From Thraustochytrium sp. TN22 (taxonomy: Eukaryota; Sar; Bigyra; Thraustochytrida; Thraustochytriidae), in contig JABLUY010000096.1 of NCBI GenBank assembly GCA_013306675.1, forward strand, positions 58,227-122,226: a DNA stretch of 64,000 bases. Reading direction: 5' to 3'. This document shows, piece by piece, positions 6,127-60,829 of the stretch. The notes under the pieces were generated by a model. The model did no database searches. It worked only from the letters and a program-made list of their open reading frames with translations, and had not been told where the DNA came from. Position 1 is the first letter of the stretch; the number at the start of each line of letters is the position of its first letter. The position numbers and the translations under genes were made by a program.

Positions 6127-7506
6127 ATGCCGCGCCTAACGACTGCGGCCTGGCAAAGCCGCAAGGTCGGCGCGATGGCGGGCGGCGCGGAGGGCAAGCG
6201 CGCACGGGGCGCGGGGCGCGCGGGGCGGCCGTCGTCGCCGTCGTCGTTGTCTTCGTCGTCGTCGTCGTCGTCGCCGCCGCCGCGGGCGAGCGGGCATGGG
6301 CGCGCAAGCAAGAAGGCGCGGCAAGGCGGCGAGGAGGGCAGCAAGCTGGAGGAGCTGCGCACGGAGCTGCGGCACAAGGTGGACCGAGAAGCAGCGAGCC
6401 TGGACGACCTGGAGCTACCGGGCGAGGTCATGGAGGTGAAGGTGATGCAGGAGGAGGATGTGATGGTGCGCATCGAGCGCCTGGCCGTGGACCTGGTGCG
6501 CAGCGTGCTGCGCGGGCAGGGGTTCGTGTTCAAGATCCCAAGCCGCGCCGAGAGCAGCCAAATGTACGTGCCGGAGCTCGACCGTATCGTGCTCAAGGCG
6601 GACCGCATCGTGGAGCGCAAGTTCGCGAGCACGCAGTCGGTGTGGCGCACGACCATCATCACGCGCGTGATCCAGCTGGTGCACAACATTTTGCAGCGCG
6701 GCATTCACATCACGAAGCGCGATCTCTTCTACACAGACGTGAAGCTGTTCAAGGAGCAGACGCAGACCGACAAGGTGCTGGACGACATCTCGGTCATGCT
6801 CGGCTGCACGCGCACGAGCCTGAACGTGGTGGCGTCCGAAAAGGGCGTGGTGGTGGGCGACCTTCTTTTCAAGGAGCACGGCGACGAGATCGACTGTTCC
6901 AAGCTGGGCATCGGCGGCAAGGGCATTCCGCCCATGATCGACCGCGTCACGGACATTCGATCGTCGGCCAAGTTCATCCTGCTCGTGGAGAAGGACGCCG
7001 CCTTCATGCGGCTGTCCGAGGACCGCTTTTACAACCGCATGAAGTGTATCATCATCACTGCGCGTGGCCAGCCGGACGTGGCGAGCCGCATGTTCTTGCG
7101 GCGGCTACGCACGGAGCTGCAGATTCCAGTGCTTGCGCTCGTCGACAGCGACCCGTACGGGCTCAAGATCCTCTCTGTATACATGAGCGGGTCCAAGAAC
7201 ATGTCGTACGACTCCAACTCGCTGACCTGTCCGGACATTAAGTGGCTCGGCGTGCGGCCCTCGGACCTCGACACGTACAAGATCCCGCCCGAGTGCCGCC
7301 TCGATCTGTCCGATACCGATCGTAAGACGGGCGAGGCCCTGCTGCAGGAGGACTTCATCAAGAAGAATCCGGAGTGGGTCCGGGAGCTCAAGCTCATGCT
7401 CAAGACCAAGCAAAAGGCCGAGATCCAGGCACTCTCCACCTTTGGCTTTCAATTCCTCACCGAAAAGTACCTGCCGGAGAAGATCGCTCGCGGTGACTGG
7501 CTCTGA
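6127..7506 (+). CDS. TOP6A: DNA topoisomerase VI subunit A-like protein (SPO11-3/TOP6A type)
   Basis: A 459-residue frame from ATG 6127; a second in-frame ATG at 6175 (MAGG) is an equally good start. The first ~80 residues are low complexity (Ser, Arg, Lys). The 5Y-CAP domain contains [15 protein letters not shown] with catalytic-type Tyr202, followed by [18 protein letters not shown] and EKGVVVGDL. The Toprim domain shows [11 protein letters not shown] (Glu288) and [17 protein letters not shown] (Asp340, Asp342), then [25 protein letters not shown] and the C-terminal [17 protein letters not shown]. These blocks match the SPO11-3/TOP6A group, which in plants works with TOP6B in somatic topoisomerase VI and endoreduplication. 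They fit that group better than meiotic SPO11-1/2. All catalytic residues are present. No TOP6B partner lies in the window. The gene ends tail to tail with glucosidase II beta about 127 bp away, across a pyrimidine-rich spacer that starts with CTCAA repeats. Confidence 0.92.
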
Positions 7507-12793: not shown

Positions 12794-12895
12794 TCTCCCA
12801 TGGTGTAATGGTAGCACACCACGCTCTGAAAGTCGACTGGCATCTGCCTTCGCAGGATTGACGTGGAAACGGCGGTTCGATTCCGCCTGGGAGAA
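12794..12895 (+). tRNA. tRNA-Gln (anticodon CTG) with a 31-nt anticodon-loop intron, copy 1
   Basis: The acceptor arms TCTCCCA (12794-12800) and TGGGAGA (12888-12894) pair over 7 bp, with discriminator A at 12895. The D arm is GTGTAATGGTAGCAC. The anticodon stem CCACG pairs with CGTGG at 12862-12866. The T arm is GGCGG-TTCGATT-CCGCC. The loop reads C-T-CTG-A, with the anticodon at 12826-12828 and an intron at 12830-12860 after the base following the anticodon, the canonical eukaryotic position. No CCA is encoded. A T9 tract follows directly. B-box (GGTTCGATTCC) and A-box type sequences are intact, so the gene should be functional. Confidence 0.93.
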
Positions 12896-12904
12896 TTTTT
12901 TTTT
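12896..12904 (+). terminator. RNA polymerase III T-tract terminator after tRNA-Gln copy 1
   Basis: An uninterrupted run of nine T directly after the discriminator base. Confidence 0.85.
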
Positions 12905-13125
12905 CCTTTTGCAAATGGCGCTTCGGCGGCACGACGTCGGCGGCGCTTTCTATTTTTGGGCGGCTGTGGTACGTGGCTTTGTTTTTTTGCAGTCAGTTGT
13001 CGCTCCGATGCGTTGCGTTGCGTTGCGTTGCGTTGCACGTAGCCGTCGTCAGGCGGCAAATTTTGTGGTTTGGCGGGGATGCACTGGCTAAGAAGGTCTA
13101 CAGTCCCTGGGACAGACATCCAGCG

Positions 13126-13239
13126 TCTCCCATGGTGTAATGGCAGCACACCACGCTCTGAAGTCATCATCGGCTTCTACGGGGGTTGAACTGATGCAGC
13201 GTGTACGTGGAAACGGCGGTTCGATTCCGCCTGGGAGAA
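13126..13239 (+). tRNA. tRNA-Gln (anticodon CTG) with a 43-nt intron, copy 2
   Basis: Mature sequence is the same as copy 1 apart from a D-loop change (ATGGCAGCAC instead of ATGGTAGCAC). Anticodon CTG lies at 13158-13160 and the intron at 13162-13204. The intron is unrelated in length to that of copy 1 but close to that of copy 3. The gene is followed by a T8 tract (13240-13247) and, after a short AT-rich bit, a 21-base G run. Confidence 0.92.
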
Positions 13240-13247
13240 TTTTTTTT
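13240..13247 (+). terminator. RNA polymerase III T-tract terminator after tRNA-Gln copy 2
   Basis: A run of eight T starts directly after the discriminator A. Confidence 0.8.
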
Positions 13248-13257
13248 ATTCTTTTTT

Positions 13258-13278
13258 GGGGGGGGGGGGGGGGGGGGG
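13258..13278 (+). repeat. Poly-G run (21 G)
   Basis: Twenty-one consecutive G lie a few bases after the tRNA terminator. The run can form a G-quadruplex and is prone to length change. It may also be hard to sequence, so the exact count is uncertain. Confidence 0.85.
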
Positions 13279-13473
13279 AGAGCGGTGCGGAGTCTAGCTC
13301 CCTGTACTTTACTTTTGCTTCTGCGGCCGACCTTCTGCCCTTGATCAGAGTCAGGCTTGTGTCTCTCTCTGTGCAGCTTATTACTGATTCTGCTCCAGAC
13401 CACTCCTTCTGTCATCACTATTCTACCGCACACAGATATATAGAACCACTGCCCATGGGACATACAACCAGCG

Positions 13474-13587
13474 TCTCCCATGGTGTAATGGCAGCACACC
13501 ACGCTCTGAAGTCATCGTCGGCTTCTCAGGAAGTTGTTCAGATGCAGTGCGTACGTGGAAACGGCGGTTCGATTCCGCCTGGGAGAA
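13474..13587 (+). tRNA. tRNA-Gln (anticodon CTG) with a 43-nt intron, copy 3
   Basis: Same exonic sequence as copy 2, 348 bp further on. Anticodon CTG is at 13506-13508 and the intron at 13510-13552. Upstream bases (GACATACAACCAGCG) resemble those of copy 2 (GACAGACATCCAGCG), so copies 2 and 3 look like a direct duplication whose introns have since diverged. A T10 tract follows. Confidence 0.92.
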
Positions 13588-16527: not shown

Positions 16528-17214
16528 CCCCAGGCCGTGTAGAGAGCAGCATTTATTTTCATGTAATATTATCCAACATGTGACAATGCAGGCTGCAGGA
16601 CGACGACCGACGTTCTCTGGCGGCGCGACGGAGTCCACGTCATTTTAAACACACAGTGGTTCGCGCGACGGATTCGTAAACACCTGGCAGGTGTATGCCA
16701 GCTTGTTCATCTCCGGGCGAACGCCAGCCTCTCGGCTGTCGAGCCCAGAAAAGGGCAGCACGCTCTCTGTGTGCGCGGGGCGACCGGGTCGCCTTTTCGA
16801 GGAGATCCTCGGGCTGACAGCTGGCTGCAGCAAGTTAATTTTGAAACACATAGCAGCTGTCGGCGGCGTGTCACGAGTCCGGCGCCCAGCATCGGTCGCA
16901 CGGGCCGGCACCGGTGCCGGCAACTGGCCACTTTGCACAGCGCTTTGACAATTTCCAAAGCAGGATCCACACGGCCTGCGCGGCGCTGGCCTACGCAGTG
17001 CCACATTGCAACATTTGGAGAAACAATTAATGGGCTACCTGCAGCTCAGAAAGTAGTAGCTGTGAGTTACTGTGACACATGAAGGCGTGGACGGAGGCTT
17101 GCTTCGTTTTACCAAGCTCGCGCTACAGTGCGCCCTGGCTGACTCATTGAGCTCCGTAGCTGCGGTTGCTTCTCTCTCGATTATGCTCTCCTTTTTACCG
17201 GTACCGAAGTACTC
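16528..17214. other. Intergenic region before the satellite array
   Basis: Less GC-rich than its surroundings. No gene recognised. Confidence 0.4.
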
Positions 17215-17453
17215 CCTGCAGTGCTTTTGCTCTTTGTATTGGCACAAGGTCGTCCCTCACGGCAGGACGCCTCGCTTTGTGGAACCGTGCTCGCCCTATA
17301 CCGTGTCTGGCGAGAGCATACTTGCTGGGCTCAGCTTGTGTTTCTACGCCCTTCGCGTGCCCCGCGCTGCGCTTGGCGGTTCTCCGCTGCTGTTTTTGTC
17401 GCTCAGTGGCCAATTTGGAGGCTGACCCCGACGAAGATGCCCGCTTTCTAGAG

Positions 17454-18089
17454 CCGTGCTCGCGCTGGACCGCGTCTGGAACACGCTCGCTCGGCTTCGC
17501 GGGTGTGCCTACTCCTTGCGCGTGCGTCTACACCTTGCGCATGCTCCGCACTGTGCTTGGTCGCTCTCCGTGGCTTTGTTGCTTTTTGGCCAGCCTCGAG
17601 GCCGTCCCGTGCTCGCGCTGTATCACGCGTAACGCATGCTCACAGGGCGTCACGGGTGTGCCTACTCCTTGCCCACGCTCCACGCTGCGCTTGGCGGTTC
17701 TTCGCTGCTGTTTTTGTCGCTCAGTGGCCAATTTGGAGGCTGACCCCGACGAAGATGCCCGCTCTCTAGAGCCGTGCTCGCGCTGGACCGCGTCTGGAAC
17801 ACGCTCGCTCGGCTTCGCGGGTGTGCCTACTCCTTGCGCGTGCGTCTACACCTTGCGCATGCTCCGCACTGCGCTTGGTCGCTCTCCGTGGCTTTGTTGC
17901 TTTTTGGCCAGCCTCGAGGCCGTCCCGTGCTCGCGCTGTATCACGCGTAACGCATGCTCACAGGGCGTCACGGGTGTGCCTACTCCTTGCCCACGCTCCG
18001 CGCTGCGCTTGGCGGTTCTTCGCTGCTGTTTTTGTCGCTCAGTGGCCAATTTGGAGGCTGACCCCGACGAAGATGCCCGCTCTCTAGAG
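17454..18089. repeat. Two copies of a 318-bp dimeric higher-order repeat
   Basis: Units 17454-17771 and 17772-18089 are nearly identical over 318 bp, and each consists of a 153-bp and a 165-bp monomer. The marker TGACCCCGACGAAGATGCCC sits at 17423, 17741 and 18059, exactly 318 bp apart. The near identity implies recent duplication within the array. Confidence 0.9.
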
Positions 18090-18417
18090 CCGTGCTCGCG
18101 CTGGACCGCGTCTAGAATAAGCTCGCTCGGCTCCGCGGGTGCGACTACTCTTGCGCATGCTTCGCGAGGTGCTTGGTAGCTCCCCGTGGCCATCTTTGTT
18201 GCTTTTTGGCCAACCACGAGGCCGTCCCTGATGAAGAGGTTCGCTTTGGAGAACCGTGCTCGCGCTGTATCGCACCTAACGCACGCTCGCAGGACTCGGT
18301 GGGTGCGCACACTTCTTGCACATGCTTCGCGATGCGCTTGGCCGCTCTCTGTGTCTATTTTTACTGCTCAATGGCCAACCTCGACGCCATCCCTGACGAC
18401 AATGCTGCCTTCTGGAG

Positions 18418-19404
18418 CCGTGCTCGCGCTGGACTGCGCCAAAAGACGCTTGCTAGACTTCGCGGCTGCGTCTATACCTTGTGCATGCTCTGCGCTGCAA
18501 TTGGCTGCTCTCTGTGGCCATTTATACTGCCCAATGGCCAACTTCGACGCCACCATTGACGATGATGCCCGCTTTATTGAGCCGTGCTCGCGTTGTGTTG
18601 TACCTAGCGCACGCTCGCTGGGATCCGCGGGTACTTGTACTCCTTTCGCACGCTCTGCGCGGCGCTTGGCAGCTCTCTGTGGCAATCTTTACTGCTCCAT
18701 GGCCAACCTCGACCCCATCCCCGATGGCGATACCGCCTTCTAGAGCCGTGCTCGCACGTTAGCGCGCCTAGAGCCCGCTCGCTGGTCTTCACGGATGCGA
18801 ATACTCCTTGCACATGCTCCGCGCTGTGCTTGGTAGCTCTCGGTGGCCATCTTTGTTGCTTATTGGCCAATCACGAGGCCGTCCCTAATGAAGATGCTCG
18901 CTTTGGAGAACCGTGCTCGCGCTGGACTGCGCCAAGAGCACGCTTGCTGGACTTCGCGGCTGCGTCTATACCTTTTGCATGCTCTGCGCTGCAATTGGCT
19001 GCTCTCTGTGGCCATTTATACTGCCCAATGGCCAACTTCGACGCCACCATTGACGATGATGCCCGCTTTATTGAGCCGTGCTCGCGTTGTGTTGTACCTA
19101 GCGCACGCTCGCTGGGATCCGCGGGTACTTGTACTCCTTTCGCACACTCTGCGCGGCGCTTGGCAGCTCTCTGTGGCAATCTTTACTGCTCCATGGCCAA
19201 CCTCGACCCCATCCTCGATGGCGATGCCGCCTTCTAGAGCCGTACTCGCACGTTAGCGCGCCTAGAGCCCGCTCGCTGGTCTTCACGGATGCGCATACTC
19301 CTTGCACATGCTCCGCGCTGTGCTTGGTAACTCTCTGGGGCCATCTCTGTTGCTTATTGGCCAACCACGAGGCCGTCCCTAATAAAGATGCTCGCTTTGG
19401 AGAG
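18418..19404. repeat. Two copies of a ~493-bp trimeric higher-order repeat (A-B-C)
   Basis: Monomers A (18418), B (18582) and C (18746) recur in the same order as A (18911), B (19076) and C (19240), with only scattered substitutions. Type A is marked by GGACTGCGCC, type B by GTGTTGTACCTAGCGCACGC and type C by TCGCACGTTAGCGCGCC. Confidence 0.9.
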
Positions 19405-19741
19405 CCGTGCTCGCGCTGGACTGCGCCAAGAGCACGCTTGCTGGACTTCGCGGCTGCGTCTATACTTGTACTCCTTTCGCACGCTCTGCGCGGCGCTTGG
19501 CAGCTCTCTGTGGCAATCTTTACTGCTCCATGGCCAACCTCGACCCCATTCCCGATGGCGATGCCGCCTTCTAGAGCCGTGCTCGCACGCTAGCGCGCCT
19601 AGAGCCCGCTCGCTGGTCTTCACGGATGCGCATACTCCTTGCACATGCTCCGCGCTGTGCTTCGTAGCTCTCCGTGGCCATCTCTGTTGCTTATTGGCCA
19701 ACCACGAGGCCCTCCCTAATGAAGATGCTCGCTCTGGAGAA
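19405..19741. repeat. Third, shortened trimer copy: A/B chimeric monomer followed by C
   Basis: From 19405 the sequence follows monomer A to GCGTCTATAC, then continues directly in monomer B at TTGTACTCC. One monomer equivalent is missing, and normal type C resumes at 19577. This is the footprint of a deletion or unequal exchange between A and B with a few bases of shared sequence at the junction. Confidence 0.85.
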
Positions 19742-20210
19742 CCGTGTTCGCGCTGTACTGCGGCAAGAGTACGCTCGCGGATCCCCACGGGTGCGTCTAC
19801 ACCTTGCACATGCTCTGCGCTGCAATTGGCTGCTCTCCGTGGCCATTTCCACAGCTCAATGGCCTACTTCGACGCCACCAATGACGATGATGCCCGCTTT
19901 CAAGAGCCGTGCTCGCGCTGTGCCGTACCTAGAGCACGCTCGCTGGGCTCCGCAGGTACCTCTGCTTCTTGCACACGCTCCACGCTCCGCTCGGTTGCTC
20001 TCCTTGGGCATCTTTGTTGCTTATTGGCCAAGCTTGACACCATCCTTGATGGAGATGCTCGCTTTCTGAAGCCGTGCTCGCGCTGTACCGCGCCTAGAGC
20101 ACGCTCGCTGGGTTTTGCGGATGCGCCTACTCCTTGCACACCGCTCTGGGGTGCGCTTGGTTCCTCTCCACGGCCTCAGGCTTTTCGCTGCTCAATGGTC
20201 AACCTATTAC

Positions 20211-20789
20211 GAGTTTGTCCGACAGTGTCTCGCCAGCTGGCAAGCGCCGTCCCAGCTGTAGGAAGTAGTTCTTAGTTAGTAATGGGGCTGGCAGCACTGG
20301 CTGCGGGCAGGTGGGGGGCACGCGAAGGCGGCCGCGAAGCTCGGCCAAGCTTGCTTCGCGCAGCAGCCAGCAAATGACGCACGCGAGGGAGGAAGAGAGC
20401 CAGCAGGAGGCTTTCAATAGCAAGTGTTTCATCTTCGAAGTCCGCACGCAGCGCTGCGCTTCAGCGCAGGCTGCGAACAAGGTGTGGGCCGGGACGCTGT
20501 ACATTTTTTGTTAGTTACTGTCAACGTCAATGCCTGCGCAGTGTGCCAATGCCAGGCCGCCAATGGGCCGTGGCATGCGCATTTAAAAATTTTCAAGAGG
20601 ACACCAGCACTCGAAAGCAGCGAGAGCTTGGGACTGACGGACGACTCGCTCACTCACTTTCAGTGGGTCAGGCTGGGGACGTTTGCTGCAAGCAGGACTG
20701 CAGGACGTCGGGCGACTGCAAACTCCCAACGTGGCATCAACACAAGGCTAGCTAGCTAGCTAGCTAGACTGCAGCAAGGAGCAGGCAAA
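20211..20789. other. Intergenic region between the array and the lipase-like gene
   Basis: No gene recognised. A (GCTA)n tract at about 20747-20766 lies immediately upstream of the lipase-like start codon, in the presumed 5' untranslated region. Confidence 0.4.
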
Positions 20790-21695
20790 ATGAAGGTGCT
20801 CGCCTCGGCAGCGGTGGCGGGCTGCTTGGCACTGGCGACGGAGGCCCGCGGCGAGGCGCTGCGAGGGCAGACCGAGGAGCGGAAGCTACTGTCCACGCAC
20901 GAGAACACGCTGGCCACGGAGGCGTGGGCCTTCATCGAAAAGGCATGGCCGTGGGATGCCATCATTGACAATGGCGGCAACGACCGCGCGGCGGTGGAGC
21001 GCGTCGACGACACCATCTACGGCACGGGCGGGAAGCTGTGCTTCGTCAAATTTGAGGAGACGAGCGGCGACGCGGAAGACTGGGTGGACAACCTGGCCTT
21101 CGGCACGGACGCCGACGGCTACGAGATCCTCGCCATTAGGGAGAAGATGTGGGTGCAGGACTCGGACCGTTGCGGATGCGCCGAGTGGAGGTGGTGGTAC
21201 CCGTGGTGCTGGAGCGCCCACTGGTGCCAGGTCGCCATGGAGTACAACTACGGCTATCGTGGTTTCGCGCTGTCCTTTAACAACATGCGCAACAGCGTGT
21301 GGAGTCAGGTGGAGTCCAAGTGCGACGTCAACAGCGACCGCCTCGTCTTGACGGGCTACTCGCGCGGCGGTGGTCTCGTCCAGAATCTCATGTACCTGGT
21401 CTACAAGGAGAACCTGTGGCCGCTCAGCCGGACCACTTCGGTCACCTTTGGCAGTCCGCGCTCGCTCTCGGACGGGCTCGCCGATGAGGTGCACGGCAAG
21501 TTCGAGCAGCTCCGCCTCGTCTACCGTGAGGATCCGGTCTGCACCATCCCGTTTGCCTGGATGGGTTATCGGCACATTGGCGAGTTGCGTTGCAACGAGT
21601 GCGGCTACGAGGGTGCCTCTGACGCGCGCGACCGCCCGTGGTACTTTAATCCTAGCCGCTTGGGCGACCACACGGGCTACGGCGACTGGTTCTGA
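20790..21695 (+). CDS. Secreted lipase class 3-like alpha/beta hydrolase
   Basis: A 301-residue frame from ATG 20790 with a signal peptide (MKVLASAAVAGCLALATEARG). The hydrolase core shows KLCFVKFEETSGDAEDWVDN, the nucleophile elbow LTGYSRGGGLVQNL (GxSxG with Ser191), then TTSVTFGSPRSL, LVYREDPVCTIPF (Asp248) and RLGDHTGYGDWF near the C-terminus (His294). The triad Ser191-Asp248-His294 is therefore complete and in lipase order. Several Cys residues (CGCAEW, PWCWSAHWC, CNECGY) suggest disulfides in a secreted enzyme. The insert of about 15 Trp/Tyr/Cys-rich residues before the elbow could form a lid or substrate surface. Class 3 lipases hydrolyse triacylglycerols or related esters; the substrate here is unknown. 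Its stop codon lies only 93 bp from that of the convergent CENP-Q-like gene. Confidence 0.8.
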   Translation: MKVLASAAVAGCLALATEARGEALRGQTEERKLLSTHENTLATEAWAFIEKAWPWDAIIDNGGNDRAAVERVDDTIYGTGGKLCFVKFEETSGDAEDWVDNLAFGTDADGYEILAIREKMWVQDSDRCGCAEWRWWYPWCWSAHWCQVAMEYNYGYRGFALSFNNMRNSVWSQVESKCDVNSDRLVLTGYSRGGGLVQNLMYLVYKENLWPLSRTTSVTFGSPRSLSDGLADEVHGKFEQLRLVYREDPVCTIPFAWMGYRHIGELRCNECGYEGASDARDRPWYFNPSRLGDHTGYGDWF

Positions 21696-36429: not shown

Positions 36430-36613
36430 GCCTTTTTTCTTGATTGTTGAAACGCTGTTGAAACAAACGAGGAGATCAATCAAAGATGGTGCTAAGAAGA
36501 TGATGGAGAGCAAGCAAGCCTTTTATTAACTTACTGTTTGTTGAGGTAGAGATAGATGATGAAAAGAGACAAGAGCATCCTCTGCGTGTTGTTTTTTATG
36601 CATGGGCGCCTGG

Positions 36614-36683
36614 CTTTGTCTCTGAGAAAACGGCTGCAGGCTTGTTCGCTTTGTCTCTGAGAAAACGGCTGCAGGCTCGTTCG
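36614..36683. repeat. Two tandem copies of a 35-bp unit
   Basis: Each copy begins CTTTGTCTCTGAGAAAACGG and continues GCTGCAGGCT(T/C)GTTCG. Copies start at 36614 and 36649 and differ by one base. Confidence 0.9.
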
Positions 36684-36707
36684 CATGGCCATGGGATGCC
36701 AGTTGCA

Positions 36708-36852
36708 CATTGCTTCTTCTCCTCACTCGCGTAGCCATGGAAAGTCGTACATTGCTTCTCTTTCTCCTCACTCGCGTAGCCATGGAAAGTCGTACATTGC
36801 TTCTCTTTCTCCTCACTCGCGTAGCCATGGAAAGTCGTACATTGCTTCTCTT
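36708..36852. repeat. Minisatellite of a 45-bp unit, three copies plus a partial
   Basis: Units start at 36708 (42 bp, one CTT missing), 36750, 36795 and 36840 (partial), and carry CCTCACTCGCGTAGCCATGG. The 42- versus 45-bp lengths keep both strands open to translation, but no gene signal is seen. Together with the 35-bp pair it fills the convergent 36430-36992 spacer between PHO88 and the zinc-finger gene. Confidence 0.92.
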
Positions 36853-50164: not shown

Positions 50165-53100
50165 TCAGCCACGCATCTCCGTGAAAGAGGACCCGGCGAA
50201 CGAGCCGCCGCCGCCGCCACCGCCAACGCCACCTGAGCTGCCGAAGCCGCCAGAGTTGCCGCCAAAGCCGCCCGAGCTGCCGCCGAAGCCGCCAAAGCCG
50301 CCGCCGCCGCCGCCACTCGGGGCGCCACCGAAGCCGCCGCCTGAGCTGCCGAAACCACCGCCACCGCCACCGCCGAAGCCGCCTGAGTTCCCGAAGCCGC
50401 CGCCGCCACTCGGGGCGCCGCCAAAGCCGCCGCCGCCACTCGGCGCGCCGCCAAAGCCACCGCCGCCGCCGCCGGCGGCGGCGCTACCGAAGCCAGCAAA
50501 GCCACCGCCGCTCGCGGCCGGCGCTGCCCCAGCCGAGGCAGCAGGGCTGCTGCCAAAGGCCGATGTGCCGCCAAAGCCGCCCGACGAGCTGCCGCCGAAG
50601 CCGCCCGACGAGCTACCAAAGGCGCCGCCAACGCCATTTGTTGAAGTGCTACCAAAGGCGCCGCCCGTGGACGAGCTCCCAAAGCCGCCACCCGTGGACG
50701 AACCGCCAAAGCCGCTGCCTGTCGAGCTACTGCCGAAGCCACCTCCGGTCGAGGTCCCGCCAAAGCCACCGCCGCCGCCGCCGCCGCTGGACGAGGCGCC
50801 GCCAAAGCCACCGTTGCCAAAGCCGCCGCTGCTGCCAAAGCCTCCGCTGCTTCCGAAGCCGCCGCTGCTGCCAAAGCCACCAGCACCGCTGCCGGCAGCA
50901 CCACTGCTGCCGAAAGCGCCGCCGCCTACGGCGGTGTTGTTGCTGCTGCCGGCGAAGTACCCAGTGGAACCCTGGCCGTACTTCTTCTCAAGCGCCGCGA
51001 ACAGCTGTGTCTCGCGCCCGGCGTACCGCTGCAGCGTCGAATCCACGGAGGAGAGCTTCTCCGGGTTGTGTTTTTGGTAGAACTCCACCAGACGCTGCCG
51101 CACGCTGATTTGCCCCCCGGCAGCGACGTTCGCATCGCCGCCACCGAAAACCGAGCCGCCAGAGGACCCAAAGCCGGAAGACGACACAGGCGGCGTGCCG
51201 GCCGGCGCCGGACTACCGAAGCCAGAGGAGGAGGCCGCCGGCGCCGGGCTGCCAAAGAGCGAGGTCGTGGCCGTCGATGAGGACGAGGAGGAGGGCGCCG
51301 CCGCGCCAAAACCGCCGCCGCCGCCGCCAGACGCAAAGGCCCCGAAGCCGCCCGAGGAGGCGGCCGGCGCAGGCTGCGCTGCCCCGCCCTTGGCCACGAG
51401 CTTCACCGTGGTGTGGTACTTCTTCTCCATGAGGTCGAGCATGCGGTTGTAGTTGGCCGCGTGCTTCTTGAGCGCCTCGTCCACCTTGGAGAGCTGCTCC
51501 GGCTTGTGCTGCTGGTAGAACTCCACCAGCGTCTGGCGCACGTCCACGTTGCTCAGGTCGCGCTGCGTGGAGGGCGTCCCGGCCGCCTGGGCGCCTTCTG
51601 CGCTTGGTGCCGGCGACCCGAAGCTGGTCGACTGGGCACCACCAAAGAGCGAGCCGCTCCCGCCGCTCGTGGCGTCCGCAGGCTTTGCCGAGCCAAAGAG
51701 AGAGGTGGGCGCTGCCGCGGTCGCAGGCGCCGCCTCGTCCTTCTTGGCGTCCAGAGCCGCGCCAAAGCCCGAGAAGAGAGACGAGCCGCCGATGCCGCCG
51801 CTGGTCCCGCTCTTTGCAGGCGCTTTGGGCGTCGCCGGCACGCCATCCTTGGCGCCGCCGGCCTCGGAATCAGCCTTGTCGCCCTCCTTGGCGGCCGTCG
51901 CCGCGGTGTCAAGGCGGAGCGAGCCGCCAAAGCCGCCAAAGCTACCGAAGGTCGACGCAGGCGCCGCCTCTGGCTGGTCGCCTGCATCAGACTGCGTCGT
52001 GTTGGCACTCTCGGTGCTTGTGGCGCGGCTCGCGGGCGCCGGAGGCGCCGCGGCGGCCTCGGCGCGCGCGGCCGCGAGGTCGGACTCTTTCCAGGACCTC
52101 CCCACGGCGTCCTCGGAGACCACCTGTTTGAACTTGGGCGGGTCGGCGAACTGCGAGAGCGCGTCCTCGTCCGCGACCGTAAGCCCACGACGCGGTGCCT
52201 TGAAAGAGCCGAGAAAGTCCAGCGAGCCATCGTCCGCCAGCGCGCCGTCCGACTCGATCGTCTGGCGCGCCGTCTTGGCGATCAGCCGCCGCCGCCACCG
52301 CAGCGCCTTGCGTTCTTCGGACTGCGCAGTCTGCACAGGCCGCTCCACGCGCACCTCAGCGCCCGAGGCGTCCCGCAGCACGACCGGGTGAGCCGCTTGG
52401 TACTCGCCGAGGGCGGCGTCCAGCGCGGCCATCTCGTCAAGCTCGGCGCTCACCGACTTGCACGCCGAGCCAGCGCCGCGCCACGCCACGCCATCGCTCG
52501 TCGCGGCCGGGATGCCGGCCGCGGCAGCCTCGGCGGCGGCGGCCTCAGCATCCTCCTCCGCCTCGTCCGTGACGTCGATCGCGCGCCGAATTTCCGCGTT
52601 GATGCCGCCAAGCTGCGCGGACAGCTCGCGCAACGTGCGGAACTGCTGCTGCGCCTGTTTGTACGCGTCCAGCGCCTCTTGCAGCAGCTCACGCTGCCGC
52701 AGTTGCGGCCTGTCCGCGCCGGGAGTGGCGCCCAGGATACGCCGCGCGTCGCGCTTCTGCTTGGCGCTCAGGGTCTGCTGTTGTTGACGCAGGCTCTTGT
52801 GCACAATCCTCATGTGCTCGTCCACCGTGTCCCGGAAGATCTCCAGCTGCGCCAGTCGCTCTGTTGCCTCCTGCAGCCGCAGCTGCATCTCAGTCTGCTC
52901 CTCGTCCAGTGCATCGTCGCGCGCCTCGGGGGAGGCTGCCTCCAGCAAGCCGCCCAAGCCGCCAATGTCGTCACCGTCCAGCTCGCCGCCCGCCAGCATC
53001 GCAGGGTCCACCATGGCCGTCGCGCGCTTGCGCACCGACTCAAAGAGAGACACATACCCAAGGTAATTGCGCCGGATCGACGCCACCAGATCCGAAACCT

Positions 53101-56100
53101 CGCGAACCTCCTTGCGCACCTTCTTTTGTGCAAACTCGTGGCCTTCGTTCTGCACCGCGCGCCGCAGCTCCGACACGCGCGACTCCAGCTCGCTGTCCTG
53201 GCCCGGCCAGGCACGCATCATGTGCGTCAGCGACTCGTGCATGTCCGCGTCCTTGGCACTCACCAGCAGCAGGATGCTCTGCAGCAGCCGCCGCGTCTCC
53301 TCCTCTGGCTCCGTCGCCTTGCCCAGCGACTCGCGCAGCCGCGAGTTGTGCAGCGGGCCCGCCCCGCCGTCCTCGCGACTCTCCAGCTTGAGTCGCAGCA
53401 GCTCCACGCGTGGCGGCGCGGCCAGCCGCTTCTGCCGCCGCGACTGCTCCAGCTCCGACCTCAGCTTCGCATTCTCCTTCTCCAGCCGCTCGCGCGCCTC
53501 CACAAGCCCGCGATTGATCTCCTCCAGCGCGGCTTCGGTCCTTGAGATTAATTTGCCCTTCTCCGCAGGCGCACCCTCGCTAAGCCCGGCCTCCACGGCC
53601 AGCAGCAGCGAACTTGGCTCCTTGCGCGTGTTGGCAGGCGCTTTCGCAGCTGGGACTGTCGGCGGTGCCTGCCTTGTGTTGTGGGCGGGACCGCTGGCGC
53701 CTCCGCTGGTGCTCTTGGTGTTTTGCGTCGCCGCAAGGCCAGCTGCATCTTTCGAGGGTGTTTCGCCGGAAAGCCCGCCCGCGGGGGGGTTGCTAGAATC
53801 TTGAGCGCCGCTGTCGAAGCGGAAGTCGCTCACGCTTCGAGAGGCGCTGCCACCGAGGGTGTCACTTGGCGAGCTAAGACCGGAGGCATTCAAGGCCCCA
53901 CTGGAGATCTTCTTCTCTTCCGCAGGTGTGGCGGCCGAAAAAAGACCACCGCTGCTTGCACTCCCACTAAAGAGCCCGCCAGTGCTCGACGTCTTCTCCT
54001 CCGTAGGCTTGTTGGCGCCAAAGAGACCACCGCCACTAGAGCTCCCAGCAAAGAGACCGCCAGTGCTCGAGGTCTTCATCTCCTCTGCAGTCCCACCAAA
54101 GAGACCGCCAGTACTCGAGGTCTTCTCCTCAGCAGGCTTGTTGGCGCCAAAGAGACTACCGCCACTTGAGCTCCCAGCAAAGAAACCGCCAGTGCTCGAG
54201 GTCTTCATCTTCTCTGCAGTCCCACCAAAGAGACCGCCAGTGCTCGAGGTCTTCTCCTCAGCAGGCTTGTTGGCGCCAAAGAGACCACCGCCGCTTGAAC
54301 TCTCAGCAAAGAGACCGCCAGTGCTCGAAGTCTTCTCCCCAGCAGACGTGTTGGCGCCGAATAGCCCACCGCCACTTGAGCTTCCGCCAAAGAGACTGCC
54401 AGTGCTCGAGGTCTTCTCCTCAGCAGGCTTGGTGGCGCCAAAAAGGCCTCCGCCGCCACCTGAGCTTGCGCCAAAGAGACTGCCAGAGCTCGAAGTCTTC
54501 TCTTCCGCAGGCTTGGTGGCGCCAAACAGGCCCCCGCCGCCACCTGAGCTTGCGCCACTCGAGCTTGCGCCAAAGAGGCCGCTGCCACTCGACGTGGTCT
54601 TGTCGTCCTTCGATTTGCCGAAGAGGCCACCGACGGGCGGCGCCTTGGACCCATTTGAAATGCCCTCGTTCGAGCTGACCGGCGTTGCATCACCAGCTGT
54701 CGTGCCGTCCTTGAGCAGCTCGAAGTCGATGCCCTGGCCAGGGTACTTGGTGGCGAGCATGTCAAAGACCGTCCAATAGTTGCCCTCGTACTTGGACAGA
54801 ATGGCGTCGAGGTTGCCGAGCTTGGTGGGGTCGATGCGCTTGTAAAAGTCCTCGAGGACGCGCCGCGCTGCGTCCTTGGAGACAGGGCGCTTGCCCGGCG
54901 GCAAGAAGGTCACCTCGCGCGGAACGTCTTTGAAATACGCCGAGACCCCATCGCGCGTGGCGTAGATGTAGCCCTCGCGTGGGCCGAGAAACTCCGTGGC
55001 GAGGCCCTCCTCTGGCATGGGCCTATCGGAGGACTCGGCCGATTGAGGTTTGGCTTGATCTTGGCTAGCCTGAGGGGCGGCTTCCGGCTCGGCCGACGCT
55101 GGCGCCGCCCTGGCGGGTGGCAGCGGGTCGTCTCCACCCACCATCCCCGGAATGCGCGCAGACTGCGCCGAGTCGCCGTCCAGCGGAAAGTCCGTGTCGG
55201 CGAGCGCAAAGTGCTCGAGGACGCCGTCACTGGTGGCGACCACAAGCGTCGGCGGCGGCGCAAAGTGTGGCTTGGACTCGAGCTCGCCGCCGGAGCCGAA
55301 GACGTGCTCCGGCCCGACCTTGGCGCGCGCGCAAAATGCGATGTCAGCGCCAAGCACGAAGCAGGTCTCCTGCAGGCCAATGTCCTCCTCCTCGTCGCCA
55401 TTGTCAGCCCAGACCCAGGGCCGCTCCGCGAGGCTCCAAATGGAACTTCCACAGACTTCCGGGTTATCGTTGGGGTCCATGCGCGCCATGAGCTTCTGGC
55501 GGTTGCAGGCAAAGCCTCCATCTTCGTCATGCACCGTGAAGAGTGCCATGTTGCGGCTCCAGGTGGAGGTTAGCACGAAGGCGTTCAAATGCGGAATGCT
55601 GGCAAAAAAGAAGCGGTGCTCCCAGGACTTGTCGCGGATCAAATAGTTCAGCGGATCCTCGTATCGCACGGCGGTCTCGACCTGGGCCGTGGCCGGGTCC
55701 AGGTGCACGACGACAAGCGTGGGCAAGGGCGGTGGGTCCTCCTCGTCGTCGTTGTCACCGTTAGCGTCGTCGCCACCGGCGGGCGCACCTCGCATGCCGA
55801 CGGCCAGAACGGTCCTGGATGGCCAGTGGAGCGCGCAAACCTGGAGCGCGCCCTCGGCATCCTCAACTTCGAGCTGGAAGATGCCAACGGTGGACAGGTC
55901 CCGAGCGTTGAGCACGTGCACGACGCCGGCCTCGGTGCCAACCGCGAGCTGCTGGTCGTCCCCTTGGCCTGGGCCAAAAGCGCAGGCCGTGGCGCGCGCG
56001 TCGGCAAAGGTGATGGTGGTCCCGACCACCTCGCCCGAGTCGACCTGGAACCGACGAATCAGCTTCGCCTCCAGCAGCGCGAGGCTCGCCCCGGGCAGGA

Positions 56101-56638
56101 AGCACACGTCCTGCAGCGAGGCGCCGGACGCCGTGGCGGGCCGCGTCCACAGCGGGCCGCGCACGGTGTCCTGCGCGAGGCCGCCCAGGTCGAAGACGTG
56201 GGCAGTGCCATCCGAAGTCCAGGCGCAGACCGTCGCCTCGGAGAAGGGGCAGAGCTTGAGGCCCACGAGCGGCTGCGCGCCGGGAGGCGGGCGCAGCGTG
56301 GCCAGCACACGCGGCGCCACGATGGCGTCGCGCTCCTGCGCGAGATTGACGCCCTCCTTGGCCAGGAGCGTCTCCATGTCCATGTAGCAGTCCTCAACGC
56401 CGTCGCCCTCGGGCGTGCGCCATCGGCACACGTGCAGCTCGCGCCCCGCGATCTGCACCAGCAGGCCAAAGCGGGACGCCACGCACACGGACTGCGTGGC
56501 GCGTGTCGCAGGTCGCAGCAGGTGCCTGGGTAACGGGTCGGCGGCCTGCACCCTGCCGCGCGACACCACATACACCCTCGAGCTCAGGTCCTCCTCGCCC
56601 GCCGTCGCATCCACGACCACCGTCTCCACGCTTGTCAT
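50165..56638 (-). CDS. Nup214/Nup159-like FG nucleoporin
   Basis: A 2157-residue frame from ATG 56638 (MTSVETVVVDATAGEEDLSS); the upstream continuation to 57178 is Arg/Ala/Pro-rich. Residues ~1-560 form a WD-like beta-propeller (VCVASRFGLLVQIAGRELHV, LAVGTEAGVVHVLNARDLST, VDVTSDGVLEHF-type strands). In Nup214 this region docks the DEAD-box mRNA export helicase DDX19/Dbp5. Residues ~650-920 are the first FG region, built from LFG and GLF units in a 43-residue DNA-level tandem repeat. Coiled coils follow at ~990-1400 (LEEINRGLVEARERLEKENA, LRELSAQLGGINAEIRRAID), then a second FG/GFG-rich region to the C-terminus. A ~45-residue helical module occurs three times (at ~590, ~1700 and ~1850; for example LVEFYQKHNPEKLSSVD). 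Location is the cytoplasmic face of the nuclear pore. Confidence 0.85.
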   Translation of the reverse strand: MTSVETVVVDATAGEEDLSSRVYVVSRGRVQAADPLPRHLLRPATRATQSVCVASRFGLLVQIAGRELHVCRWRTPEGDGVEDCYMDMETLLAKEGVNLAQERDAIVAPRVLATLRPPPGAQPLVGLKLCPFSEATVCAWTSDGTAHVFDLGGLAQDTVRGPLWTRPATASGASLQDVCFLPGASLALLEAKLIRRFQVDSGEVVGTTITFADARATACAFGPGQGDDQQLAVGTEAGVVHVLNARDLSTVGIFQLEVEDAEGALQVCALHWPSRTVLAVGMRGAPAGGDDANGDNDDEEDPPPLPTLVVVHLDPATAQVETAVRYEDPLNYLIRDKSWEHRFFFASIPHLNAFVLTSTWSRNMALFTVHDEDGGFACNRQKLMARMDPNDNPEVCGSSIWSLAERPWVWADNGDEEEDIGLQETCFVLGADIAFCARAKVGPEHVFGSGGELESKPHFAPPPTLVVATSDGVLEHFALADTDFPLDGDSAQSARIPGMVGGDDPLPPARAAPASAEPEAAPQASQDQAKPQSAESSDRPMPEEGLATEFLGPREGYIYATRDGVSAYFKDVPREVTFLPPGKRPVSKDAARRVLEDFYKRIDPTKLGNLDAILSKYEGNYWTVFDMLATKYPGQGIDFELLKDGTTAGDATPVSSNEGISNGSKAPPVGGLFGKSKDDKTTSSGSGLFGASSSGASSGGGGGLFGATKPAEEKTSSSGSLFGASSGGGGGLFGATKPAEEKTSSTGSLFGGSSSGGGLFGANTSAGEKTSSTGGLFAESSSGGGLFGANKPAEEKTSSTGGLFGGTAEKMKTSSTGGFFAGSSSGGSLFGANKPAEEKTSSTGGLFGGTAEEMKTSSTGGLFAGSSSGGGLFGANKPTEEKTSSTGGLFSGSASSGGLFSAATPAEEKKISSGALNASGLSSPSDTLGGSASRSVSDFRFDSGAQDSSNPPAGGLSGETPSKDAAGLAATQNTKSTSGGASGPAHNTRQAPPTVPAAKAPANTRKEPSSLLLAVEAGLSEGAPAEKGKLISRTEAALEEINRGLVEARERLEKENAKLRSELEQSRRQKRLAAPPRVELLRLKLESREDGGAGPLHNSRLRESLGKATEPEEETRRLLQSILLLVSAKDADMHESLTHMMRAWPGQDSELESRVSELRRAVQNEGHEFAQKKVRKEVREVSDLVASIRRNYLGYVSLFESVRKRATAMVDPAMLAGGELDGDDIGGLGGLLEAASPEARDDALDEEQTEMQLRLQEATERLAQLEIFRDTVDEHMRIVHKSLRQQQQTLSAKQKRDARRILGATPGADRPQLRQRELLQEALDAYKQAQQQFRTLRELSAQLGGINAEIRRAIDVTDEAEEDAEAAAAEAAAAGIPAATSDGVAWRGAGSACKSVSAELDEMAALDAALGEYQAAHPVVLRDASGAEVRVERPVQTAQSEERKALRWRRRLIAKTARQTIESDGALADDGSLDFLGSFKAPRRGLTVADEDALSQFADPPKFKQVVSEDAVGRSWKESDLAAARAEAAAAPPAPASRATSTESANTTQSDAGDQPEAAPASTFGSFGGFGGSLRLDTAATAAKEGDKADSEAGGAKDGVPATPKAPAKSGTSGGIGGSSLFSGFGAALDAKKDEAAPATAAAPTSLFGSAKPADATSGGSGSLFGGAQSTSFGSPAPSAEGAQAAGTPSTQRDLSNVDVRQTLVEFYQQHKPEQLSKVDEALKKHAANYNRMLDLMEKKYHTTVKLVAKGGAAQPAPAASSGGFGAFASGGGGGGFGAAAPSSSSSSTATTSLFGSPAPAASSSGFGSPAPAGTPPVSSSGFGSSGGSVFGGGDANVAAGGQISVRQRLVEFYQKHNPEKLSSVDSTLQRYAGRETQLFAALEKKYGQGSTGYFAGSSNNTAVGGGAFGSSGAAGSGAGGFGSSGGFGSSGGFGSSGGFGNGGFGGASSSGGGGGGGFGGTSTGGGFGSSSTGSGFGGSSTGGGFGSSSTGGAFGSTSTNGVGGAFGSSSGGFGGSSSGGFGGTSAFGSSPAASAGAAPAASGGGFAGFGSAAAGGGGGGFGGAPSGGGGFGGAPSGGGGFGNSGGFGGGGGGGFGSSGGGFGGAPSGGGGGGFGGFGGSSGGFGGNSGGFGSSGGVGGGGGGGSFAGSSFTEMRG
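54063..54320. repeat. 129-bp in-frame tandem repeat inside the nucleoporin FG region
   Basis: GTGCTCGAGGTCTTCATCT recurs at 54063 and 54192, 129 bp (43 codons) apart, with near-identical sequence in between. Shorter units of the same kind extend over roughly 53990-54560. The translation repeats KTSSTGGLFGGTAEE and SGGGLFGANKPAEEK. Confidence 0.85.
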
Positions 56639-57056
56639 GGCAGCTCCTCCTCGTCCTCCTCGTCGTCCTCCTCCTCGTAGCTCGTCGGCGCGCTGCAGGC
56701 CGCTCGCTATCCGGGTCTCCTCCGCTCGCCGCGCTCCGCTCGCCGCGCCAGCGCCAGCGCCGCGGGTCGCGGACGGGCGCCTGCGCGCTGGCCGCCGCGC
56801 TCGCCGCGCCTCGCCCGCCGCCGCCGCGCCGCGCCGCGCTCGCCGGCCGGGCGGAGTCCGGAGTCTGGGCGGGCCTGGCCATGGCTGCGGCGGCGGGCAA
56901 CCACCGGCGCGCGCGCGACAGCACAAGGCGCACCGCAGCGCGGGCGCGGGCCAAGCGGCCCAAGGCGAATAGGGCGGTTGGCGCGGGTGGCCGCGGCGGC
57001 AGAGCGGCAAGAACTGCGCGCGCGGGCGGGGCGCGGGCGGGGCTGGGGCCGGCGCG
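56639..57056. other. Divergent promoter region, Nup214-like / UTP21
   Basis: Very GC-rich, about 420 bp between start codons. No further feature recognised. Confidence 0.4.
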
Positions 57057-60000
57057 ATGGGGTCGCGGCTGCTGGAGGCGTTCCGCACGATCGGGCTGGT
57101 GTGCGACGATGTGCCGCTGGCGCTGAAGCGACTGGGCAAGGAGCGGTTCGCCACGGTCAGCGTGGGCAAGGGGTTCATGGTCTACGACCTGGACGCGCTC
57201 GTGGTCAAGATGGTGTCGCCAGCCAAGCTCAAGAGGGACATCACGGCGCTGGAGAGCGCGAGGGACGCCACCTTTGTGGCGTGCGGCAGCGAGGTGCAAG
57301 AGTGGCGCAGGGTCGAGCAGCGCAGGACGCTGCTGGAGGCCGGTGCGGGACATGGGCCCGTGGCGCAGATGGTCGTCTTCGGCCACGTGCTCGTGGTGAT
57401 TACGGCGCCCTCGGGCCCGGGGGCCAAGGCCGGTCGTCTGCTGGTCGTCGACCTCAAGTCCGGCCGCACGGTCCGCCGCCTGCGCCTCGGGTCGCCTGGC
57501 GCGGCGGCCCGCCCCCCGGCCCGGGCAAGTGACGTAGCGTCCAAAGACGACGACGACGACGATGAGGAGGAGGAGGAGGAGGAGGGGAGCGCCATGGAGA
57601 AGGGCAGCTCAGACGAGGACCTCGACGAGGACGCGACGCCGTTCACGCCCACCTGCGCCTTGCACCCGGACACCTACCTGAACAAGATGCTCGTGGGCAG
57701 CGCTGAGGGCGCGCTGGAACTGTGGAACATCCGCACCGGCAAGCGCGTGTACGCATTCAAGGGCTTTGGCAGCGGCGTGACGTGCCTCGCGCAGAGCCCA
57801 GTCGTGGACGTGGTAGGCGTCGGCCTCGCGGACGGGCGCGTGGTCGTGCACAACGTGCGCGTGGACGAGACGCTCATGACTTTTACGCACGCGGGCGGCG
57901 CCGTGACGTCCATCTCGTTTCGCAGCACGGGTCAGTTGCGCGTGGGGCCCAGGTTCCCCATGCTGGTGAGCGCGAACTCGAGCGGCGAGCTGGCGATCTG
58001 GGACCTTGCGGAGAAGCGCCTGGCCGCGTCGGTGCGCGATGCGCACGACGGCGCGGTCGTGCGCATCGCCTTTTTGCCCGGCGAGCCGCTGCTGGTGAGC
58101 CAAGGCTCGGACAACTCGCTCAAGATCTTCATCTTTGAGCAAGAGGACGGACGCGCGCGCCTGCTCAAGTCGCGCCAGGGCCACCGCAGCCCGCCGACGC
58201 GCATCCGCTACTACGGCGGCGACACCATGTCGACGTTGGCTTCCGGCGCGGATGCCTCGTGCTGCCAGATTCTGTCGGCGGGCCGCGACCGCTCCTTCCG
58301 CGTCTTCCACACGGCGCGCGACCAGCTGAACCGCGAGATGTCGCAGGGTCCGCTGCTGAAGCGCGCGCGCACGCTGGACGTCAAGATCGAGGAGCTCAAG
58401 CTGCCACCGATCGTGGACTTCGCCGCCACCGAGGCGCGCTCACGCGACTGGTGCAACGTGCTCTCGGCGCACTCTGGGGAGGGCGCCGCCTTCACGTGGC
58501 AGCTCGAGAACCGCGTCATCGGCGCGAGCGTGCTGCGGCCGGACGGCGAGGCCGGCCAGCTCTCGCTGCGCAAGCTTGGCTCGGACAAGATCTCGCAGCG
58601 CGCCGCGAACTTCCCCGCTGCGCTCTGCGTGGCCATTAGCTCGTGCGGCAACTTTGGCCTGGTGGGCACGGCCGAGGGGATCGTCTTCCGATACAACATG
58701 CAGTCGGGTCTGCCGCGCGGCTCGTACCCAAAGCCGTCTGCGGCGCATCTCAGCCGCAAGGATCGCAAGGCGCGCCAGGCAAAGCGCCGGAAGCTCGACG
58801 CCTCTGACGTGCGCCTCCTGCCTGGCGTGCAGGAGTGGGAGGACGACGAGGACGCGGACTCGGGCGAGTTCCGCAAGCTGGCGATGCTCATGCGCAACCC
58901 GCAGCGCCACGATGGCGCCGTGCAGGGCGTGGCTGTCGACGCCGTCAACAAGACGCTCGTGAGCGCCGGTCTCGATGGCGAGATCAAGTTCTGGGACTTT
59001 GCCGAGCATGACCTGCTCAAGGTCGTGCACGCCGGCGCGCCGGTCGCGCAGATGATCGCGCATCGCGACGCCGGCATGCTGGCCGTGGCCTGCGACGACA
59101 TGCGCGTGCTCGTGGTGGACACCACCATGCGCCGCATCATTCGCCGCTTTGCGGGTCATAGCGCGCGCATCACCGATATGGCCTTCAGCTCCGACGCGCG
59201 CTGGCTCGCCACGGCTAGCGCCGACACCAGCCTGCGCATCTACGACTTGCCGTCTGCACGCTGCATCGACTGGGTTCTCTTCCCGCGCCCCATCACGGGC
59301 CTCACCTTCTCGCCCACTGGCGAGTACCTGGCCACCAGCTTTGCCGACAGCCTGGGCATCTCGCTCTGGGCCAACAAGGCGCACTTTGGTTCGGCCAAGG
59401 CCAACGCCATTGCGCGCAAGCCCGTGCGTATGGTGCTCCCGTCTCCGGGCGTCGGCACTTCTGGCGCGCTTCTCGACTACAGCCTTGACGCGGCCGACAA
59501 GACGAGCGAGGTGGGCGCTGGCAACGTGAACGATGATGAGGACGGGGACGACGTGGCAGCGGACGCCGCCAGCGAGGCGAGCGACGACGAGGACGAGGAC
59601 GAGGACGAGCGCGTCCCTGCGGCGCCTACCACGGGCGAGGTGTCCTTCTCGGGCGACGTCGCATCCAAGTGGTTTGCGCTGGTGCACCTGGACGTCATCA
59701 AGGCGCGCAACAAGCCAGAGCAGCCGCCGGAGAAGCCGGAGAAGGCTCCGTTCTTTCTGCCCAGCACCCAGAGCGTCAATCCGGTCTTTCAGGCGCAGGT
59801 CAAGCCGGAAGACGAGGCCGAGGTGGAGCCGGACGTACCGATGAACTTGGGCGGCGCCGGCGACTGGGGCGATGAGGATGACGAGGATGACGAGGGTGAC
59901 GAGGACAAGGAGCAGGAGGGCGGTGTCGAGGGCGACGCGCTGGCCTCGTCGCGCATCATGCACAGCAGTGGCGGCAGAGGCATCGCCAAGGCGCGCTCGA

Positions 60001-60553: not shown

Positions 60554-60829
<276 letters not shown>

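Follow-up and report, generated by a model that had tools for sequence, protein, structure and literature searches.

A tandem array of about 165-bp units in the genome of Thraustochytrium sp. TN22 is most likely an old relic, no longer mobile, of the tandem array that non-autonomous hAT-like DNA transposons of the same genome carry inside them. (The array lies in what we call the window, the whole stretch of 64,000 nucleotides that was analysed. The window is C449:58227-122226 of an assembly of 37.9 Mb in 453 contigs.) Other arrays of this family sit inside hAT-like transposons, which could not be seen by a reader of the window alone. If our reading is right, a supposed satellite becomes the trace of a mobile element. 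A single protist genome would then offer, side by side, copies with an array of 4 to 13 near-complete units, a copy that has none, a candidate for the autonomous partner, and the old relic. With these, one can ask how tandem arrays originate within transposons and how they outlast them.

The array had been described in an earlier note, from the sequence alone, as about 18 monomers at 17215..20210, mostly of 164-165 bp with two of 153 bp. This description holds up. A tandem-repeat finder (TRF), autocorrelation, and an nhmmer profile of the monomer agree on the array, and the coordinates were correct to within about 100 bp. TRF reports periods of 165, 318, 329, and 494 inside 17365-20160. The autocorrelation of 17215-20210 peaks at 0.440 at a shift of 165 (for shifts of 20-999, the background has a mean of 0.270 and a standard deviation of 0.019), while four control stretches from the same window reach at most 0.344. 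The features of the window copy are:

17031..17073, + strand: short stretch just before the leader, with weak similarity to the unique sequence at the left of the C397 element (anchored local alignment)
17074..17112, + strand: leader (GACACATGAAGGCGT...; GACACATGAA-GGCGT), which also precedes the arrays of C375, C435, and C397
17113..17189, + strand: degenerate first unit, a weak match (nhmmer E=0.00012)
17285..20204, + strand: tandem array of 18 head-to-tail units, the final one cut (TRF, autocorrelation, nhmmer monomer profile)
17607..18088, + strand: 318-bp dimer repeat (165+153 bp; TRF), with the units at 17607 and 17925 99% alike
18418..19740, + strand: trimer higher-order repeat, with 95-98% identity between repeats

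According to nhmmer, the units start at 17285, 17454, 17607, 17772, 17925, 18090, 18254, 18418, 18582, 18746, 18911, 19076, 19240, 19405, 19577, 19742, 19907, and 20072; this last unit is cut at 20204. Among the 17 complete units, 13 are 164-165 bp long, and the others are 153 bp (17454 and 17772), 169 bp (17285), or 172 bp (19405). Mean identity among the units is about 73%, as computed from the 15 near-complete ones. (A near-complete unit spans at least 150 model positions; shorter units were dropped.) Conserved blocks are common to all of the aligned units.

The dimer and trimer repeats were absent from the earlier description, and they explain the TRF periods of 318 and 494. The copies of the trimer are at 18418-18909, 18911-19403, and 19405-19740, and the corresponding units are 98% identical (18418 and 18911; 18582 and 19076) or 95% identical (18746, 19240, and 19577). 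The 172-bp unit at 19405 is 81-89% like both of the parent unit types, so that the third copy of the trimer looks as if its first two unit types had been fused. Both higher-order repeats have the pattern that unequal exchange would leave.

We searched the assembled DNA twice for the monomer, which gave 52 and 66 matches (both are lower bounds). The family is present on seven contigs: C449 (the window), C375, C343, C299, C255, C435, and C397. Each array is 0.8-3 kb long, with 57 near-complete units altogether. By BLAST, the six arrays outside the window span 768-2,326 bp. Of the seven, the array in the window is the longest, at 2,996 bp, and has diverged the most (mean identity of 73% versus 80-98% in the others). 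"Small interstitial satellite-like array" was thus a fair description of it, but the suggestion that it might be an island of a larger centromeric family found no support, as the search of the assembly yielded just these seven short arrays (again, the counts are lower bounds). The unit length is 164 bp in C343, C299, and C255, 165 bp in C397, and 178 bp in C375 and C435. (C435 also holds shorter units.) When aligned, units of the 178-bp type show a duplication of 13-14 bases within CTCAATGGTCAAC. One more contig, C29, retains part of one unit. A search of viral contigs with one exact pattern from the monomer gave 0 matches.

Of the six arrays outside the window, five are part of short transposons bounded by terminal inverted repeats, and four of these transposons have perfect 8-bp target duplications. 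The sixth (C397) is a decayed copy with altered ends. The clear copies begin with a short inverted repeat, followed by unique sequence (about 185-320 bp), the array (4-13 near-complete units, each of 164 or 178 bp), a hAT-like C-terminal remnant, and the second inverted repeat. There are two types of ends: C343, C299, and C255 have CAGACATCAC/GTGATGTCTG, and C375 and C435 have CAGGGGTCGCCC/GGGCGACCCCTG. The elements that we scanned for target duplications are:

C343 element: 2,608 bp, target duplication 8/8, TGAGAGTG on both sides
C255 element: 2,116 bp, target duplication 8/8, GCTGCAGG
C375 element: 2,747 bp, target duplication 8/8, GCTTGGCC
C435 element: 3,243 bp, target duplication 8/8, GTGCCGGC
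C32 element (C32:46562-50805), array-less: 4,244 bp, target duplication 8/8, GAAGCACG
C299 element (C299:3267-5546): 2,280 bp, ends intact, target duplication 2/8
C397 element: 1,649 bp, altered ends, target duplication 4/8

In other words, 5 of 7 elements, including 4 of the 6 that bear arrays, have matches at all eight positions. Just 30 of 200,000 random pairs match this well. C299 is nearly identical to sisters that do have a target duplication; perhaps two insertions recombined with each other. Ends of the second type are also found without an array: on C28, two C375-type ends lie 381 bp apart (C28:75452-75832), with no target duplication. The pattern for these ends has 9 matches in the genome with at most 2 mismatches, against 1 for the control, and single matches are on C309 and C8. 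We rejected the idea that the monomer arose as a copy of the ends: in 8 comparisons covering both types, no resemblance was significant (p = 0.30-0.94).

The elements on C343, C299, and C255 share about 320 bp to the left of the array (99.4-100% identity) and 1,007 bp to its right (100%). Their arrays span 1282, 954, and 790 bp, which are steps of exactly 328 and 164 bp. These arrays differ by whole 164-bp units, although the assembler could have produced such steps by collapsing repeats.

In C29, the region to the right of the array encodes a frame of 167 amino acids that resembles the C-terminal part of a transposase. In each of the six elements with an array, the part to the right matches this C29 fragment, at 68-81% overall (C255, C299, and C343 at 81%, with one TGA each; C375 at 80%; C435 at 74%; and C397 at 68%, with stops). 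The fragment also matches longer frames, less closely: one of 1140 codons on C199 (34%, E=1e-12) and, at 39-41% and E=2e-5 to 1.4e-4, one of 1192 codons on C57 and five of 1282 codons, on C32 (41%, E=2e-5), C13 (two), C101, and C15. The C199 frame passes narrowly for Pfam's Dimer_Tnp_hAT (22.4 bits; the cut-off is 21.4), and a 592-amino-acid part of it scores 18.7 bits. Pfam gave no match up to 0.1 for the C32 frame (searched in two pieces) or for the C29 fragment, and searches of PDB returned no hAT entry. A STES-FS...KGRL block is common to all three proteins that we compared, and the C32 frame has the STES-FS block near its C terminus as well as a CAAH-LNL block. We take both blocks to be typical hallmarks of hAT transposases. 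Overall, hAT seems to be the best filing for these elements, on the joint basis of the ends, the 8-bp duplications, and the STES-FS block; the profile support alone would be insufficient. Because the matches to Pfam's profiles are marginal, this would be a divergent hAT lineage.

The element on C32 is a candidate for the autonomous partner of the elements with C343-type ends, and of that terminal type only. It contains an intact 1282-codon hAT-like frame and no array, and it matches the outermost 320 bp (93%) and 290 bp (90%) of the C343-type elements. (The frame is on the strand opposite to that of the remnant beside the arrays.) For C375-type ends, no full-length transposase was found among the 16 protein matches of the C29 fragment, which was not an exhaustive search. 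There are six of the longer elements with C343-type ends, on C32, C13 (two), C101, C15, and C57. Five of the six have intact frames of 1282 codons, and the frame on C57 has 1192 codons. Their near-equal match scores suggest that these elements moved recently.

The most unusual point is that the two sets of ends share an interior. To the right of the array, the C343 type and C375 have a 719-bp segment in common (94.6% identity), which C435 matches at 85.5% over 595 bp. Since the C343 type and C375 are nearly identical here despite their different ends, we infer an exchange of the interior between elements whose ends differ. The array and the hAT-like remnant might even be an exchangeable cassette that passed between two transposon families with unrelated ends and was retained, perhaps because it helps the elements to transpose or to control their transposition. 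In that case, the copy at the window locus would be either an earlier donor of the cassette or one that has been retired. We consider this extended scenario quite doubtful.

How does the window array relate to these elements? At the left edge, the similarity is strong: 17058-17174, which includes the leader and the first unit, matches the edge of the C397 array (73%, E=5.65e-16 with lenient scoring). To the left of the leader, the similarity to C397 is significant over short distances (p = 0.001 at 50 and 60 bp, 0.010 at 80 bp, and 0.042 at 100 bp) and then fades (p = 0.161 at 150 bp and 0.499 at 200 bp). For C375, the corresponding values at 50, 60, 80, 100, 150, and 200 bp are 0.984, 0.040, 0.126, 0.275, 0.633, and 0.622. 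In a test of the wider left flank, 18 of 200 shuffles reached the observed value for C397, as did 37 of 200 for C435 and 156 of 200 for C375. On the right side, a tblastn search of the window with three hAT-like queries found no hAT remnant at E<=1, and 27 to 126 of 200 shuffles reached the alignments of the right flank to the right parts of the elements. The outer flanks are single-copy: 16530-17260 occurs once in the genome, and the one match to 20180-20800 is 26 bp long and lies inside that stretch itself.

We also looked for the ends of an element around the window array. The one candidate for an inverted repeat with an 8-bp duplication around the array scores 14, and 9 of 20 rounds of shuffling reach 14 or 15; a separate listing of inverted repeats for the window copy held nothing convincing. 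Because neither the inverted repeats nor the target duplication rise above chance, we describe the array as a probable relic and not as an element.

The history of the window copy might be as follows. A transposase of the C32 type would move the array-bearing elements in trans, and the number of units would shift by unequal exchange, or by slippage during the repair that follows excision. The copy in the window would once have had the ends of an element; since then, its right part would have been lost and the rest would have decayed. This copy is probably functionless today.

Could the array instead have begun as an ordinary satellite, perhaps at the window locus, from which a piece with its edge was captured and then spread by hAT-like transposons? 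In favour of this, none of the other six arrays is as long or as diverged as the one in the window, which also lacks transposon ends. The monomer is unlike the ends of the elements, and we found no match to it in the C32 element or at the C199 locus. Also, an array edge that was taken from an older satellite would look identical to what we see. However, a leader before the array that is common to C375, C435, and C397, with a weak continuation to the left, is what we would expect of descent from an element. Furthermore, in a midpoint-rooted tree, the units from the window are not monophyletic: 12 of the 15 cluster with a single unit from C397 and a single unit from C435, and three are apart. 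Because the ends are absent from the window copy, its flanks are single-copy, the match of the leader is strong, and the similarity to its left is weak, we view descent from an element as likely and the capture of a satellite as unlikely. Co-option as a putative regulatory or insulating sequence between neighbouring genes is very unlikely. The array is about 0.6 kb before the start of a class 3 lipase gene (20790), and the blocks that all of the aligned units share might reflect constraint, but the units have been continually reshuffled by higher-order duplication.

Membership in a centromeric or heterochromatic satellite family seems, if anything, slightly less probable still. The unit is near the length of a nucleosome repeat, and there are higher-order repeats, but such a family should have many copies in long arrays, and the assembly has a few short ones. 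Nor do the window units show a clear excess of CpG decay, which is slight at most (C to T, 0.152 in CpG versus 0.119 outside; G to A, 0.115 versus 0.085). The observed/expected ratio of CpG is 1.06 in these units and 1.14 in the window, so the array is not obviously silenced by methylation. The chance that the array is a protein-coding repeat or encodes an array of structured RNAs is close to nil. The earlier note had pointed to a frame that stays open across several units and raised the possibility of a decayed coding repeat. Two stretches do stay open for long, over 337 and 295 codons, but an open frame is expected, because a random 165-mer of the same composition leaves at least one of the six frames open in 76% of trials. 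We looked for one conserved frame and found that the codon phases are equally variable (145/819, 140/804, and 144/804 substitutions). Related units are 164 or 178 bp long, and 6 of 6 related arrays have stops in all six frames. We therefore rejected the coding repeat. We also rejected an RNA family: Rfam has no match up to E=5, and the consensus fold lacks support from covariation (the covariation term is +0.3, with a double change in 2 of 29 pairs).

We made some other observations in the window and the genome. The GC content of the window is 60-77% in 2-kb steps, with long uninterrupted frames. Rfam identifies three tRNA genes at 12794-13587 (+ strand). These are 102-114 bp each, and because they are longer than the 71-position model, they probably contain introns. 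(ARAGORN reported no tRNA genes in the window.) At the C375 locus, 0.5 kb from the element, a 141-bp unit is repeated 1.8 times at 6760-7015 and looks, by eye, like a tRNA with an insert. The window has other repeats as well: a 35-bp repeat (2.1 copies) beside a 45-bp repeat (3.0 identical copies) at 36613-36852, and a CA microsatellite at 60584-60828 (123 copies, 98% matches). At 50168-57178 (- strand), a 2337-codon frame has the repeats of FG-nucleoporins, with internal tandem repeats of 81 and 129 bp at 53957-54557. Elsewhere in the genome, an intact 3044-codon frame scores 2539.7 bits against the PfaA family of omega-3 PUFA synthases (the cut-off is 1010.1), and a 2083-codon frame adjoins it. 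(In this search, 11 of 14 control genomes also had matches, 0 of them over the cut-off.)

Mobile elements with internal tandem repeats are already known as a kind. Among the literature matches listed, none describe the window array or such an element in Thraustochytrium sp. TN22. Galileo of Drosophila is also a cut-and-paste element with internal tandem repeats. It belongs to the P superfamily, and its repeats are within its inverted repeats and are said to hold extra sites for the transposase (PMC4079207). In contrast, the TN22 monomer is unlike the ends of either terminal type. The TN22 elements resemble the hAT superfamily in their 8-bp target duplications and in their short inverted repeats that start with CAG. 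They differ from it in that their matches to the profiles are marginal and in the tandem array, which is an addition.

The closest precedent that we can point to is Tetris (with its TIR-220 repeats) from Drosophila virilis (Dias et al. 2014, PMC4079207), a non-autonomous DNA transposon with internal tandem repeats of about 220 bp. Two near-identical copies of Tetris differ by one unit, and its repeats are also found without the ends of the element (PMC4079207). It shares with the TN22 elements the internal tandem repeats, the change in the number of units between near-identical copies, and the presence of arrays without an element. In Tetris, long fold-back inverted repeats enclose the units, whereas the TN22 elements have short recognisable inverted repeats and one array. 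Long amplified arrays were not found in the TN22 assembly. The target duplications of Tetris, at 8-10 bp, are like those in TN22. Its authors suggest Mutator and report that no autonomous copy was found (PMC4079207). The superfamily thus differs, and in TN22 the arrays are followed by a hAT-like remnant, with a candidate autonomous partner for one of the two terminal types.
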